Assembly: GCA_035533015.1 (NCBI GenBank)
Contig: DATLUQ010000062.1
Span: 1 to 64,000, forward strand
Source: Gemmatimonadaceae bacterium
GTDB lineage: Bacteria; Gemmatimonadota; Gemmatimonadetes; Gemmatimonadales; Gemmatimonadaceae
DNA: 64,000 nt
Reading direction: 5' to 3'
The notes under the pieces were generated by a model that saw only the letters and a list, made by a program, of their open reading frames with translations, was not told the origin of the DNA and searched no databases. The position numbers and the translations under genes are program-made. This document shows positions 57,103 through 62,956 of the stretch, one piece after another; positions within the stretch are counted from its first letter, which is position 1; each line of letters begins with the position of its first letter.

Positions 57103-58674
57103 TCACCGCAGATGCGCCACCAGCCAGTCGGCGAGCGTACCCAGCACGACCGGCCGCACCACCCGAGTGGGAAGCGACCCATACCGCGCGGGATCCCCTG
57201 TCGAATCGGCCACGAACAGATGGTCGGTGGCCGGGAATTTCCGCACCGTGACGTCGCGATCGCCCCCGGCGCGGAAGGCCGCGGCGAGCGTGTCTGCCTG
57301 CTCCGGCGTCACCTGTTGATCCGTTTCCCCCTGTAGGATCAGCACCGGCACCCGTACCTCCCGGGCCGTGAGCAGTGGGTTGTAATCCATGAAGTACCGC
57401 AGCCAGGCGCTCTTCGCCGCCAGTTCGCCCGTGGCTTTCGCGCTCTCGGCGAGCGCCGCCCTGCGCTGGTCCGGCGTGAGCGACGTCGCATTGGCCACCG
57501 CGTTGCGCTGCTGGAACTCGAGGATGCGCCGCCCCGTGTACGCCGGCCCGGCCAGCAGCACGATTCCCTTGAGCGATGGATCGGTAGCCGCCACCATGGG
57601 CGCGATCATCCCGCCCTCGCTGTGCCCCACCAGCCCCAGCCGAGTCCCGTCGATCTCGGGCCGCGTACGCAGGTACGCCAGCGCGGCGCGGATGTCGTTG
57701 GCATAGTCGGCCGAGGTTGCCGTGGGCGGCCCGGCGGTCGAACCGTTCATGCCGCGGTCATCCAGCCGCAGCGTGGCAATCCCACGCCGCCCCAAGGTGT
57801 CGGCCACCTGCCAGAACGGGCGGTAGCCATCCACGATCGAGATCCGCTCATCACGGTCCTCGGTACCAGAGCCGGTGATCGTGACCACTGCCGGTACGGG
57901 GCCGGACCGCACGGCGGGCAGCGTGAGCGTGCCGGTGAGCGACAGCCCCTCGGGCGTGTGGACGGTTACGTCCTGAGCGGTGTAGGGTGCCCCCAGGGGG
58001 GCGCCGTAATCGATCTTCCGGATGACCAGCGGGTGCGTCCCACCCTCGCGCAATACCGTGACGTTCTGCAGGGGAATCAGCGCGCCGAGCAACGCGCCGT
58101 CCGGCCCCACCGCGGCGCGCATGGTGGTGGCACCAAGGCGGACCGTAGCGGAGTCGCCACCTACCCACTCCACCACCGCCGGAATCGTCTGCCCGCCCGA
58201 CACCATGAACAGCGGCACGGTGTCGACGGCGCGTCCTATGGCGCGCGCGCGGCGCAACGCCTGCTCTACCATGGCGAACGAGGGATTGATGTAGGGCACC
58301 GCGCCCGGCCGCGTAGCAAGCGTCTGGACGCGCGAGACGTTGCCCGACACCGTGGCACGCACCGAGTCGCCCTCGAACGCGAGATCGGCGCTCTGGAATG
58401 GCACCGTATCGCCGTTGGCCAGCCGGTAGAAGGCGCTCGTCATGGCCGCCACCTGCGCATCCGGAGCCAGGGTCATCGCATACCGCCACCGGGTGCCCGT
58501 CGACTTGTCGACCATGTCGACGTCCAGGCGCATGGGAGTGCGCTGCACGACCTCGCTCGTGAGCGTGTCGCGGCCCAACAACATGCGGAAGGTATACTGG
58601 TCGGCGCCCTGGGCGCCGGCGGAAGCGCCGACGGCGAGGCACAGGCCGGCAGCGGCGAGCGATGCACGATTCAC
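57103..58674 (-). CDS. Exported alpha/beta hydrolase, last gene of the sdpR operon, 523 aa
   Basis: A signal peptide (about 1-22) precedes a roughly 200-residue beta-rich N-terminal domain of unknown role. The C-terminal hydrolase domain (about 270-523) has ITGSGTEDRDERI, GRRGIATLRLDDRGMNGS, the nucleophile elbow VGHSEGGMIAP, and LILQGETDQQV with the acid, then FPATDHLF with the His. The GTG at 58674 overlaps the SdpI stop as GTGA. It shares motifs with the separate hydrolase at 60972, and both have the same upstream operator. The enzyme may act on peptides, esters or lipids in the periplasm. Confidence 0.85.
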   Translation of the reverse strand: MNRASLAAAGLCLAVGASAGAQGADQYTFRMLLGRDTLTSEVVQRTPMRLDVDMVDKSTGTRWRYAMTLAPDAQVAAMTSAFYRLANGDTVPFQSADLAFEGDSVRATVSGNVSRVQTLATRPGAVPYINPSFAMVEQALRRARAIGRAVDTVPLFMVSGGQTIPAVVEWVGGDSATVRLGATTMRAAVGPDGALLGALIPLQNVTVLREGGTHPLVIRKIDYGAPLGAPYTAQDVTVHTPEGLSLTGTLTLPAVRSGPVPAVVTITGSGTEDRDERISIVDGYRPFWQVADTLGRRGIATLRLDDRGMNGSTAGPPTATSADYANDIRAALAYLRTRPEIDGTRLGLVGHSEGGMIAPMVAATDPSLKGIVLLAGPAYTGRRILEFQQRNAVANATSLTPDQRRAALAESAKATGELAAKSAWLRYFMDYNPLLTAREVRVPVLILQGETDQQVTPEQADTLAAAFRAGGDRDVTVRKFPATDHLFVADSTGDPARYGSLPTRVVRPVVLGTLADWLVAHLR

Positions 58675-59303
58675 GTTTGTTCTCCCTTCCAGGCGAAGTA
58701 CGAGTAGACCACCGAACCCAACGACGCGCCCATCACGGCGCTCATCAGCACGACGAATCCGGCGCGGGCGGGCAGGACGACGGACAGCACGGTGACAATG
58801 CCCGCCGCGGTCATGAGGTAGCCGCCCACGCGATGCGTCTTGGTCCACACGGTGTCGCTGGACAGCGTCCACGGCGTGCGGATGCCGAACCACCAGTTGG
58901 AGCGGGCGCGGGGCATGACGTTGCCCAGGAGCAGCAGCATGCCCCCGACCACGACCGGCATGACCCGGTCGATGCGGATCGGCCAGCCGAGCGCGGCGCC
59001 AATCACCGCGACATGGACCGCCACCAGCAGCGTGATGACGGCATCGACCACCAGGTCGTAGGTGCCCTGGAACTTGGCGTAGTTCGCGCGCCGCGGATCG
59101 ATGAGCGGCAGGCCGCGCATGAAGCCCCAGATGGCGAGCGCGATCAAGGGCATGAGGAAGGCGCCGACCAGCCGGCTGCCGTAGCCGTTGGGCTGGCCGT
59201 TGATGCCCCAGTGCATCGGCATCGAGAGCGGAAGGTGGGGATACGCGATCGCCGAGAACGAGAGCGCCCCCGCGATCAGGATCACGGGATACCACTTACG
59301 CAT
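58671..59303 (-). CDS. SdpI-family membrane protein, 210 aa
   Basis: Membrane protein with about six helices. The N-terminal part has the DUF1648 pattern (PLSMPMHWGINGQPNGYG), and the C-terminal half resembles SdpI (GNVMPRARSNWWFGIRTPWTL). In Bacillus, SdpI protects against the SdpC toxin and controls SdpR by binding it at the membrane. Start at 59303 overlaps the sdpR stop by eight bases and the stop overlaps the hydrolase gene, so the three are translationally coupled. No SdpC toxin is in the window. The protein is likely a signal or immunity component. Confidence 0.88.
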   Translation of the reverse strand: MRKWYPVILIAGALSFSAIAYPHLPLSMPMHWGINGQPNGYGSRLVGAFLMPLIALAIWGFMRGLPLIDPRRANYAKFQGTYDLVVDAVITLLVAVHVAVIGAALGWPIRIDRVMPVVVGGMLLLLGNVMPRARSNWWFGIRTPWTLSSDTVWTKTHRVGGYLMTAAGIVTVLSVVLPARAGFVVLMSAVMGASLGSVVYSYFAWKGEQT

Positions 59304-59568
59304 GCTTCCTCCCCGGTCGAATCCAATCGAGCAACTGCTCGACGACGTCGTTGAACACCGTGGTGTTGAGTTCGTAAACGACCTGCTGGCCGTGGCGCTC
59401 GGACAGGACGAGCCCGGCGTCGCGGAGCACGCCAAGGTGGCGGGAGATCGTGGGCCAGGCGGTGTCGAACTGTTCGGCGATTTCTCCCGAGGTGCGGGGC
59501 CGTTTGCGCAGGAGTTTGAGGATCTCTCGGCGGGTGGGGTCGGCGAGGGCTTTGAAGGCGGAGTCCAT
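59296..59568 (-). CDS. SdpR-like ArsR-family repressor, 90 aa
   Basis: A winged-helix repressor without metal cysteines, of the SdpR type: FKALADPTRREILKLLRK, TSGEIAEQF and the recognition helix PTISRHLGVLRDAGLV, and the wing SERHGQQVVYEL. The pairing with SdpI strongly suggests an autorepressor relieved by SdpI. The ATG is six bases from a strong TATCTT -10 so the mRNA is leaderless. The operator at 59575-59605 covers its promoter and is repeated before the hydrolase at 60972. Confidence 0.9.
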   Translation of the reverse strand: MDSAFKALADPTRREILKLLRKRPRTSGEIAEQFDTAWPTISRHLGVLRDAGLVLSERHGQQVVYELNTTVFNDVVEQLLDWIRPGRKHA

Positions 59569-59574
59569 GGCGAC

Positions 59575-59605
59575 AAGATAAGCTACTTAGCTAACTAGAC
59601 AAGTA
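59575..59605 (-). promoter_or_regulatory. sdpR operon promoter/operator
   Basis: On the leftward strand: TACTTG, two free bases, TA, two free bases, TAGCTAAGT, two free bases, CTTATCTT. It includes -35 TTGTCT and -10 TATCTT 16 bases apart, and a dyad, TAAG-N3-CTTA, in the spacer. All fixed bases (25 of 31) recur at 60882-60912. Confidence 0.7.
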
Positions 59606-59637
59606 TAAGCAGCGGGACCGTTCACGGCTCACAGCGT

Positions 59638-59643
59638 TCGGCC
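59638..59643 (+). repeat. Direct repeat flanking the inserted unit (left)
   Basis: TCGGCC directly outside the left terminal repeat. The same six bases directly follow the right terminal repeat at 60852-60857, as expected of a target-site duplication. Confidence 0.5.
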
Positions 59644-59688
59644 TGTCGGCGTGAGCGTTCGATTAAACGCGTTGTGCAGTTTCGTCGT
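59644..59688 (-). repeat. Terminal repeat copy A (left end)
   Basis: A 45-bp repeat beginning TGTCGGCG at its outer end. Read leftward it matches copy B at 32 of 45 positions and copy C at 33 of 45. The core GCACA and the string CGAAC-GCTCA-GCCGACA are best conserved. Confidence 0.65.
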
Positions 59689-59703
59689 ACACGCAGTGCC
59701 GAC

Positions 59704-59748
59704 TGTCGGCATGAGCGTTCGAAAACACAGTCTGTGCGGTATCTCCGA
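59704..59748 (-). repeat. Terminal-type repeat copy B (internal, tandem with A)
   Basis: The second copy of the 45-bp repeat, 60 bp inside copy A and in the same orientation; 33 of 45 positions equal copy C. Confidence 0.6.
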
Positions 59749-59799
59749 ACCCGCCGGTACGTGGCTGGATCGACGACCGGGACCATATCCGAGGATGGC

Positions 59800-60615
59800 T
59801 TACAGGCGGTCCAGCAACATCCTGGCGTTCGCCGACAAGAGCACGAACGCGGCCTCGGACACGTGTTTGCCACGCTGTGCGCCCAATTCGTCGAGCAGGG
59901 CGCCGAGCGATGCCGAATCGGGCCGCACCTTGGCGCCAAGACTGTTGCATACCCCCCGTTCATCGACCCACCCGAGTCGGCACGCGCGGGTGATGAGGTG
60001 GGACAGCCGCGAGGCCAGACCGCCCGGGGAGCGATCGACCGGCGTGGGCCCGACGCCGACGGTGAGGCCCGTCGTGCCGCGCAGCGTGACCGCGGTATCC
60101 GCGGATGGCGGCGTCGGGATAGAATCAGACGCGAGCACCGTATCGACGGTGTCCACCGGCCCATCGGCCTCGGCCCAGTAGCGGACGATGTCGACCGCCC
60201 CACGGGCCGAGTAGACGAGCGGCGGAGTCGAGGACCCCGGCGCCAAGAACGCCGAGTCCGCCCCCCACCCGGCGGTGGCGCGTTCATGCCAGCTCGTGGA
60301 CGTCCATGCGCCTGCCCACGCGTTGGACGCCCGCACGTGGAGGACTCCGGGAGCGTCCACCATGAACGAGGTGAGGGAATCCCGAGCCGTGGGTAGGACC
60401 GTCACAACGTAGGAAAGCGTCACTGAATCGGCGGCGAGGTCGAGCAGCGCCGGCGCAACCACGACGTCGAACCCTGGCGCGTGAGTCACGGTGTCGATGC
60501 TGCGACTCGCATGCGCTGTGGGACTGGTGGGGATCGATGGCCGTGGGTGCGACGGCACATGCCGTGTCGAGACCGCTAGAACAACGCCCATCACTAGATG
60601 CGGAACACGAGCCAT
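59800..60615 (-). CDS. Hypothetical secreted protein within the inverted-repeat unit, 271 aa
   Basis: I do not recognise a family. The ATG at 60615 is preceded by GGGGAGAG five bases upstream and starts a hydrophobic leader (HLVMGVVLAVST) that is a probable signal peptide, although its cleavage site is not obvious. The rest is rich in Ser, Thr, Pro and Asp in beta-strand-like stretches (DSVTLSYVVTVLP), then a C-terminal helical segment (about 225-271, ASLGALLDELGAQRGKHVSE to ANARMLLDRL). Two cysteines near residue 210 (ACRLGWVDERGVC) could form a disulfide. It is the only gene in the unit, so it is the passenger if this is a mobile element. Confidence 0.55.
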   Translation of the reverse strand: MARVPHLVMGVVLAVSTRHVPSHPRPSIPTSPTAHASRSIDTVTHAPGFDVVVAPALLDLAADSVTLSYVVTVLPTARDSLTSFMVDAPGVLHVRASNAWAGAWTSTSWHERATAGWGADSAFLAPGSSTPPLVYSARGAVDIVRYWAEADGPVDTVDTVLASDSIPTPPSADTAVTLRGTTGLTVGVGPTPVDRSPGGLASRLSHLITRACRLGWVDERGVCNSLGAKVRPDSASLGALLDELGAQRGKHVSEAAFVLLSANARMLLDRL

Positions 60616-60806
60616 CGAGTCTCTCCCCTCGGTTTGCTGACTCCGGCGGTTACTTCTCCAAAGTGGCAGACTCTCGTCATCAACGCGGCGCAACTGGAGA
60701 GGATGAGCGTTCCTCCAACGCACCCTCGACGATTGCTTGGCCTGCCGGCACGGGCTTATGCGTAAGACTACCGGAACGAGCCCGCCGCGCCGAGACGTTG
60801 ACCGTG

Positions 60807-60851
60807 TCGAAGAAACCGCACATGCTGTTCGATCAAACACTCGCGCCGACA
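60807..60851 (+). repeat. Terminal repeat copy C (right end)
   Basis: Inverted relative to copies A and B and ending CGCCGACA at its outer end. It lies in the 356-bp gap between the hypothetical gene and the hydrolase gene. The remainder of that gap (60616-60806) shows no other clear feature; a short GATGAGCGTTC near 60700 may be a remnant of the same repeat. Confidence 0.6.
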
Positions 60852-60857
60852 TCGGCC
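60852..60857 (+). repeat. Direct repeat flanking the inserted unit (right)
   Basis: TCGGCC directly after the right terminal repeat, identical to 59638-59643. Confidence 0.5.
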
Positions 60858-60881
60858 CTCCGGATGAGGCCCAGTCGTCAT

Positions 60882-60912
60882 TACTTGCATACCTAGCTAA
60901 GTGTCTTATCTT
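60882..60912 (+). promoter_or_regulatory. Hydrolase promoter/operator shared with sdpR
   Basis: TACTTG, then TA, TAGCTAAGT and CTTATCTT with the same two-base gaps as at 59575-59605. -35 TTGCAT (60885-60890) and -10 TATCTT (60907-60912) are 16 bases apart, with dyad TAAG-TGT-CTTA between. The gene starts 59 bases downstream. Confidence 0.7.
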
Positions 60913-60971
60913 AGAATCGCGGCCTCCCCCGGCCCTCGATTCCACCCCACCCGTCGGAGCGCACAAGGCAT

Positions 60972-61943
60972 ATGAACACGCTGATCCTCGCCGCCTGCTT
61001 GGTGGCCTCGACGATCACCCTCCCCGACTCCGGAGGCTCCGCCCCAGCGCCGCGCGAAGAACCCATGACCCTCCAGACCCCGACCGGGGCGATCGAGGGA
61101 ACGCTCACCCTGCCCGCCGAGGGCGCGGGCCCCTACCCCGTGGCGCTGATCATCGCCGGCTCCGGGCCCACCGACCGCGACGGCAACAGCCCGGCCGGCG
61201 TACGCACCGACGCCTACAAACTCATCGCCAACGACCTGGCGGCGCGCGGCATCGCAACCCTGCGCTACGACAAGCGGGGCATCGCCGCCAGCCGCGCCGC
61301 CGGCCGCAGCGAGTCCGATCTGCGGTTCGACGACTACGTGCGCGACGCCGAAGGCTGGCTGACCGAGCTCCGCGCCGACCGGCGCTTCACGACCGTCACC
61401 GTAATCGGGCACAGCGAGGGATCGTTGATCGGGATGGTCGCCGCGCCCGCGGCCCACGCCGATGGGTACATCTCGCTGGAAGGAGCAGGCCTGCCTGCCG
61501 CGGTCGTCCTCCGCACCCAACTCGCGGGCAAATTGCCCCCGGATCTGGCCGCCGAGTCGGAACGCATCCTGTCGGGTCTCGAGAAGGGACAGACCACCGA
61601 CAGCGTGCCTGCCCCGCTGCAGCCGCTCTACCGCGCGAGTGTGCAGCCCTATCTCATCTCATGGTTCAAGTACGATCCGGCCACGGAGATCGCCAAGCTG
61701 CAGATCCCGGCGCTCATCGTGCAGGGGACGCACGACGCGCAGATCGGCCTGGACGAGGCACAGCGGCTGGCCAAGGCCGATCCGCAGGCCACGCTGCTCG
61801 TGCTCGACGGCATGACGCACGTGCTCAAGGACGCGCCGGCCGGGCTGGCCGCGCAGACGGCGGCGTACACCGATCCGTCGCTGCCGCTCGACCCCAAGCT
61901 CGTACCGGCGATCGCCGAGTTCGTGGAGCGCCTGCGGCGGTAG
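60972..61943 (+). CDS. Exported alpha/beta hydrolase (BAAT/dienelactone-hydrolase-like), 323 aa
   Basis: A signal peptide is predicted from a short hydrophobic start (about 1-17, LILAACLVASTITL). The hydrolase domain has IIAGSGPTDRDGNSP, ARGIATLRYDKRGIAAS, nucleophile elbow IGHSEGSLIGM, acid region IVQGTHDAQIG and His in DGMTHVL. This is the same architecture as the C-terminal domain of the hydrolase at 57103-58674, so they are paralogues. AAGG lies five bases before the ATG. The common operator with sdpR predicts co-regulation. The function is unknown. Confidence 0.88.
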   Translation: MNTLILAACLVASTITLPDSGGSAPAPREEPMTLQTPTGAIEGTLTLPAEGAGPYPVALIIAGSGPTDRDGNSPAGVRTDAYKLIANDLAARGIATLRYDKRGIAASRAAGRSESDLRFDDYVRDAEGWLTELRADRRFTTVTVIGHSEGSLIGMVAAPAAHADGYISLEGAGLPAAVVLRTQLAGKLPPDLAAESERILSGLEKGQTTDSVPAPLQPLYRASVQPYLISWFKYDPATEIAKLQIPALIVQGTHDAQIGLDEAQRLAKADPQATLLVLDGMTHVLKDAPAGLAAQTAAYTDPSLPLDPKLVPAIAEFVERLRR

Positions 61944-62047
61944 GTCCCGCGGCGCCGGATGAGTAGAGAAGGGTCCCTTCGCCATTGCCGACGGCTGATC
62001 GCTGTCAGCTCACGGCTCCAGGTGTTCAGCGCTCGGCCGCGCCGTTT

Positions 62048-62956
62048 TCACTCCGCGAGTTTCCGCAGCAGCTCCATCATCTCGACGTCCCACGGATCGG
62101 CGGCCGGGTCGTCGTCGGCAATGCCGGGGTGTTCCTGCGGCGTCTCGAGGATGCACGGCACGCCGGCCGAGCGCGGGTCGTGGAGCAGCCAGCGGAATGG
62201 CTCGACGCCGATCTGGCCCTGACCGATCAGCGCGTGGCGGTCCTTGTTGGAGCCCAGCGCGCCTTCGCTGTCATTGAGATGGAAGAAGCCCGGCGGCTCG
62301 CCGGTGGCCCGCTCGAACGCGTCGAGCACCGCGGCCTGCGCCGCGGCGCTCTCGTGAATGGCGAACCCCGACGCGAACAGATGACAGGTATCGAGCCCAT
62401 AGCCGGTGCGATGGCGCAGCGCCGGGGGTACCCGCTCGAGTATACCGGCCACCTCGTCAGGCGTGCGGCCCATGGTGCGGCCGGCGCCCGCGGTGTTCTC
62501 CACGAGCAGCCGCGTGCGCCCCTCGGTGCGCTCGAGGGCGTGGGTGATGGCGGCGGCGATGCGGCCCAACGCCGCCGCGCGGTCGTCGTCGGTAGCGGCG
62601 CCGGGGTGGAAGCACACGGCACCTACGCCAAGCGCGGTTGAGCGTTCCAACTCCTTGGCCAGCCCGTCGCGGGCGCGCGCCCATTTTTCCGGATCGGGGG
62701 TGGCCGTGTTGAGCACGTAGCCAGCGTGGACCACCACGTGGTCAAGCGCGATGGCGGCGTCACCCAGGGCCGCGACAAACCGCGCTACGCGATCGGGTTT
62801 GATGGAGACCTTGTCGCCGTAGTACTTGGGGATGGAGGTGAACACCTGCAGCGCGGTCATGTGGGCGCTCGCCGCGCGGCGCACGGCCATGTGGATCCCG
62901 CCATTGGCGATCGTGTGTGCGCCGATGAACCGCCCGGGCCCGCCGTCCGCGGTCAC
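62048..62956 (-). CDS. nfo: Endonuclease IV (deoxyribonuclease IV), 302 aa
   Basis: A zinc-dependent AP endonuclease for base excision repair. The TIM-barrel motifs are seen in order: IGAHTIANGGIHMAVRRA near the start, VVHAGYVLNTATP, LLVENTAGAG, GYGLDTCHLFASGF with metal ligands, FHLNDSEGALGSNKDRH and the C-terminal ILETPQE. Its start overlaps the upstream response-regulator gene by four bases (ATGA), so both are translated together. The length is typical. Confidence 0.93.
   Translation of the reverse strand: MTADGGPGRFIGAHTIANGGIHMAVRRAASAHMTALQVFTSIPKYYGDKVSIKPDRVARFVAALGDAAIALDHVVVHAGYVLNTATPDPEKWARARDGLAKELERSTALGVGAVCFHPGAATDDDRAAALGRIAAAITHALERTEGRTRLLVENTAGAGRTMGRTPDEVAGILERVPPALRHRTGYGLDTCHLFASGFAIHESAAAQAAVLDAFERATGEPPGFFHLNDSEGALGSNKDRHALIGQGQIGVEPFRWLLHDPRSAGVPCILETPQEHPGIADDDPAADPWDVEMMELLRKLAE

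Follow-up and report, generated by a model that had tools for sequence, protein, structure and literature searches.

Matching operators ahead of two transcription units predict an SdpR regulon with an SdpI-type membrane protein and two alpha/beta hydrolases in a Gemmatimonadaceae bacterium

Two short sites in a stretch of Gemmatimonadaceae DNA of 64,000 nucleotides (the window) are most probably operators of the SdpR repressor encoded beside them, and we place at roughly 0.85 the probability that SdpR, acting at these sites, represses both the sdpR-sdpI-hyd1 unit and hyd2, a reading that comes from sequence comparison. The idea of an SdpR regulon, put forward in the initial annotation of this DNA, is well supported computationally by the rarity of the motif in the genome, by its conservation ahead of sdpR, and by its conservation ahead of hyd2.

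Results

Genes of the two units

The product of sdpR, which had been described as SdpR-like, scored 115.4 bits against the NF033789 model (cutoff, 100) and is thus a member of the SdpR family. The end of sdpR overlaps sdpI, and the GTG start of hyd1 in turn overlaps the sdpI stop, so that the three genes very probably form a single operon, whose order is retained in relatives. Hyd1 and Hyd2 are 34% identical over 198 residues, and both exceed the cutoff of 27 bits for PF12146 (Hydrolase_4), with 35.8 bits for Hyd1—the match coming from the scanned portion 57352–58677 and the remainder of the gene from the list of open reading frames—and 52.3 bits for Hyd2. Each carries the nucleophile motif GHSEG (GxSxG), invariant across the Hyd2 homologs, along with an N-terminus that by eye resembles an export signal, so that both hydrolases are probably exported. 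The proposed association of an SdpI-type protein with two such hydrolases is accordingly borne out at the level of the genes. Assignment to the esterase EstD (NF041096) was rejected, the scores of 78.0 bits for Hyd1 and 79.2 bits for Hyd2 being far below the equivalog cutoff of 600.

The two units are indeed divergent, as had been stated, but lie about 1.3 kb apart with an open reading frame in between. That frame (orfX, 59800–60615, minus strand, 271 aa) gave no match to Pfam or NCBIfam and none in the related loci searched; it could be an orphan gene or no gene at all.

Table 1. Coordinates of the genes, sites and segment discussed, in window positions.
Feature	Positions	Strand	Description
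hyd1	57103–58674	minus	alpha/beta hydrolase; PF12146; GHSEG motif; signal-like N-terminus
sdpI	58671–59303	minus	membrane protein; PF07853 (DUF1648) and PF13630 (SdpI); overlaps end of sdpR
sdpR	59296–59568	minus	predicted ArsR-type autorepressor, 90 aa; NF033789
Putative sdpR promoter	59575–59605	minus	TTGTCT, 16 bp, TATCTT; overlaps operator A; from sequence reading
Operator A (predicted)	59579–59602	minus	24-bp palindrome upstream of sdpR, within 31-bp element 59575–59605
Segment of about 2.4 kb	59596–62063		carries orfX, operator B and hyd2; missing in three congeners; ends approximate
Putative hyd2 promoter	60882–60912	plus	TTGCAT, 16 bp, TATCTT; overlaps operator B; from sequence reading
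Operator B (predicted)	60885–60908	plus	upstream of hyd2, within 31-bp element 60882–60912
hyd2	60972–61943	plus	alpha/beta hydrolase, 323 aa; second unit; PF12146; GHSEG motif

Identity and rarity of the two sites

Read toward their genes, site A (TACTTGTCTAGTTAGCTAAGTAGCTTATCTT, toward sdpR) and site B (TACTTGCATACCTAGCTAAGTGTCTTATCTT, toward hyd2) match without gaps at 25 of 31 positions, as originally reported. Beyond the sites the identity falls to 24/60 upstream and 20/50 downstream; the similarity is therefore confined to the site, which bespeaks a shared site and not a long duplicated promoter. The identity outside coding sequence had itself been taken as a hint of repressor binding; the identity is real, but a figure of 25/31 is not strong evidence by itself, and we rejected it as such because 147 offset pairs of 31-mers within this window of 68% GC reach the same score, nearly all of them in GC-rich DNA. 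The AT-rich motif, for its part, had an expected count of 0.00 in dinucleotide-shuffled versions of the window, and three pattern scans allowing up to 3 mismatches placed it at exactly two positions in the 3.03-Mb genome, namely sites A and B. We used pattern scans because a covariance-model scan of the same genome returned nothing, missing even the known site ahead of sdpR.

Symmetry and promoter reading

The alignment of 23 sites from relatives attains its maximal symmetry at the middle of TTAGCTAA, and the operator there is a 24-bp palindrome, TTAG-N4-TTAGCTAA-N4-CTAA, comprising four half-sites. In the window, operator A reads TTGT-CTAG-TTAGCTAA-GTAG-CTTA, and operator B reads TTGC-ATAC-CTAGCTAA-GTGT-CTTA. 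The dyad TAAG-N3-CTTA, originally reported as part of the element, occurs in both window sites yet is not kept in relatives, where the base following TAA is mostly T or A; we therefore discarded it in favor of the center at TTAGCTAA.

The promoter boxes claimed for the same sites fared unevenly: the TTG, the 16-bp spacer and the TATCTT are present, but neither putative promoter matches a consensus sigma-70 promoter, and the TTG taken as part of a -35 element is actually the left outer arm of the operator. Were these sites nothing but ordinary promoters with -35 and -10 elements in common and without an operator role, the plausible hexamers and the 16-bp spacer inside the element would be accounted for, and TTG / 16 bp / TATCTT-like boxes are indeed roughly retained in three congeners, the operator spanning the boxes in the window's genus. 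Against this explanation, across relatives it is the spacer and the palindrome that are conserved and not the hexamers; the element occurs twice in 3 Mb, whereas housekeeping promoters are common; and in genus g6 a better promoter seems to lie upstream of the palindrome, all of which leaves the explanation very improbable. The putative -10 of sdpR ends 6 nt ahead of the ATG, so that the sdpR mRNA, on this reading of the sequence, may be leaderless.

Conservation with sdpR

The initial annotation had let its reading depend on the behavior of the motif in relatives, and there the motif is kept upstream of nearly all sdpR orthologs: we found the operator just ahead of the gene in 29 of the 33 orthologs examined, from two families of the order, 28 by consensus match (at least 11/16 matches, shuffle p ≤ 0.02) and one more (G105) by profile scan. 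The four without it are three genomes of one genus (g30), whose operons place hyd2 ahead of sdpR and have the operator at hyd2 instead, and G097, whose site is degenerate. By sequence, then, an operator in its own promoter is among the SdpR-family features of this gene.

A weight matrix built from the sites of 23 relatives, the window's genome being left out, ranked site A (27.9 bits) and site B (27.7 bits) first and second in the window, more than 20 bits ahead of the next non-overlapping site (4.2 bits), scores that are somewhat flattered because the matrix sites were chosen as the best matches to a consensus from the same set. With the entire genus removed, the values were 25.7 bits for A and 24.3 bits for B.

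Specificity of the motif

Five ArsR-family proteins of the genome score above the NF033788 cutoff; of their promoters, that of sdpR alone contains the operator, the motif being absent from the other four. A profile scan over 149 related genomes gave matches in 20 of them, and in 19 of these, G016 being the exception, the matches lay at sdpR or hyd2. Both results bear on the possibility that the sites are operators of one or more different ArsR-family regulators with a similar recognition helix, SdpR being only one user: the motif is missing from the other ArsR-family promoters here, and the best matches across the 149 genomes track sdpR and hyd2. Such sharing would nevertheless fit a similar site found ahead of an ArsR-SRPBCC pair in one genome (G011), which shows that the motif type is not exclusive to SdpR, and it would also fit the resemblance of the half-site to (A/T)TTAG-N9-A(T/A), the consensus recognized by the rhizobial ArsR-family regulator NolR (PMC8960804, PMC12445080). 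We consider this alternative improbable, if the least improbable of those weighed here, and retain SdpR as the regulator of both sites.

Several further operator-like matches were inspected and not assigned to SdpR (G089:C18, G107:C7:138478, G012:C615, G016:C50, and one at a MarR-like gene in G056). A related palindrome, TTAG..TAGCTA..CTAA, occurs in two genomes of one genus (L127:4061–4084 and L126:197–220); in G056 it immediately precedes the MarR-like gene, so assigned by visual inspection, and could serve as an operator for the regulator encoded there.

Conservation with hyd2

As an independent test of site B we examined hyd2 in relatives, where its conservation supports a second target. 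In eight genomes from two families the gene lies in sdpR-sdpI-hyd2 operons (G006, G060, G089, G097, G104, G107, G127, G137), and in three more the order is hyd2-sdpR-sdpI (G032, G056, G076), with the operator ahead of hyd2 in genus g30. G008 and G061, two species of a different genus, have hyd2 and sdpR on different contigs, and the unlinked hyd2 has an operator of its own, TTAGACAGTTAGCTAAGTATCTAA or a one-base variant, with 16/16 and 15/16 matches. Altogether, hyd2 is in the operon or behind an operator in 14 of the 15 genomes having both genes versus 1 of the 14 in which sdpR has no ortholog (p = 3e-6 by Fisher's test, uncorrected for relatedness). The sole genome with both genes in which hyd2 seems uncontrolled is G040, where sdpR is present and hyd2 lacks an operator; conversely, among genomes without a bona fide sdpR an operator ahead of hyd2 was absent except in G078, which has a 14/16 site.

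A set of 80 named loci containing relatives of hyd2 extends beyond the order: four of them, from Bacteroidia metagenome-assembled genomes (L148, L151, L154, L157), carry sdpR-sdpI-hyd2 operons, and in all four TTAGATATTTGTCTAATTATACAA, or a version differing from it at one or two bases, starts 32–34 bp upstream of the sdpR match. This site resembles the operator of the order's second family.

As a separate observation, one genome (G038) has an operator-like site before a lone sdpI gene (L131:3668–3691), and no bona fide sdpR was found there. G038 belongs to the family of the window, and its neighborhood is matched by two named Gemmatimonadaceae contigs with a DNA identity of about 80%, which makes Gemmatimonadaceae the probable family.

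The segment carrying site B

In three congeners (G001, G002, G003) the alignment blocks stop at 59594–59618 and resume at 62031–62064, the DNA of the sdpR promoter running straight into a TIM-barrel gene located in the window at 62048–62956. Since hyd2 was not found anywhere in the genomes of these congeners, the comparisons for site B come from outside the genus. It is simpler to suppose that this species gained the segment; loss from the three congeners is the alternative.

That site B is on a segment absent from congeners and adjoining sdpR might suggest that the sdpR promoter was duplicated locally and that the site is its remnant, hyd2 being functionally outside the regulon. The similarity, however, ends at the site edges, the unlinked hyd2 genes of another genus also have the operator, and several genera, as well as Bacteroidia, have hyd2 inside an sdpR operon, so that a remnant is the least probable of the explanations considered, and site B is better read as an operator through which SdpR controls hyd2.

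Discussion

SdpI and SdpR homologs are widespread, and to our knowledge the sole characterized SdpI signaling pathway is the response of B. subtilis to its cannibalism toxin. As in B. subtilis, the window's ArsR-type SdpR, a predicted autorepressor, shares one operon with SdpI—here with overlapping genes, in keeping with a component of the three-protein Sdp pathway—and SdpI has the common architecture of an N-terminal (DUF1648) and a C-terminal (SdpI) half. The differences are three: we found no member of the SdpC toxin family (TIGR04032) in the window's genome, in a search that did recover the B. subtilis control; the regulon additionally includes one or two alpha/beta hydrolases; and the operator is defined here by conservation alone. 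Matches to TIGR04032 below its cutoff occur in two relatives (L266 and L267, in G029 and G099), both of which are without an sdpR ortholog.

We propose that SdpR would bind the 24-bp palindrome and cover the promoter regions of sdpR-sdpI-hyd1 and of the separate hyd2, both units thus being repressed. SdpI would sense a signal at the membrane, whereupon SdpR would probably be drawn off the DNA, by analogy with the Sdp pathway of B. subtilis, on which model SdpI would sequester SdpR at the membrane upon toxin binding; SdpI and both hydrolases would then be produced together, and the hydrolases may act on the compound sensed by SdpI, processing or destroying it. Since no gene of the SdpC family was found in the genome, the signal must be of another kind or originate with neighbors.

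Among characterized regulators, NolR resembles SdpR in the winged helix-turn-helix of the ArsR family and in the TTAG of its half-site, but is a global regulator of symbiosis (PMC8960804, PMC12445080), whereas the SdpR described here would have an operator of 24 bp with four half-sites and two genomic sites. A regulator likewise named SdpR, from the brasilicardin cluster of Nocardia terpenica, binds its own and other promoters through a 14-nt box (PMC12185567); that protein, however, differs in controlling a biosynthetic cluster, in part by activation, and in leaving its own promoter unaffected, and the accessible part of that report notes no link to SdpI or to a hydrolase (PMC12185567). Among the papers available to our literature searches, we found none combining SdpR, SdpI and an operator, and none combining SdpI, a hydrolase, ArsR and an operon.

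These comparisons give SdpR-type repressors beyond the Firmicutes a specific and conserved operator, and delimit a regulon that comprises one or two transcription units. In the window, a predicted target bearing a matching operator is on a segment missing in three congeners and adjoining the repressor's own operon. The recurrent alpha/beta hydrolase partner hints at the kind of signal that toxin-free SdpRI systems may detect. Tentatively, and as a conjecture that we regard as rather unlikely, Gemmatimonadota and Bacteroidota might possess a toxin-free Sdp pathway in which SdpI senses an external membrane-active compound and SdpR releases the synthesis of an envelope hydrolase that destroys or modifies it; were that so, sensing, immunity and detoxification would be united in one regulon.
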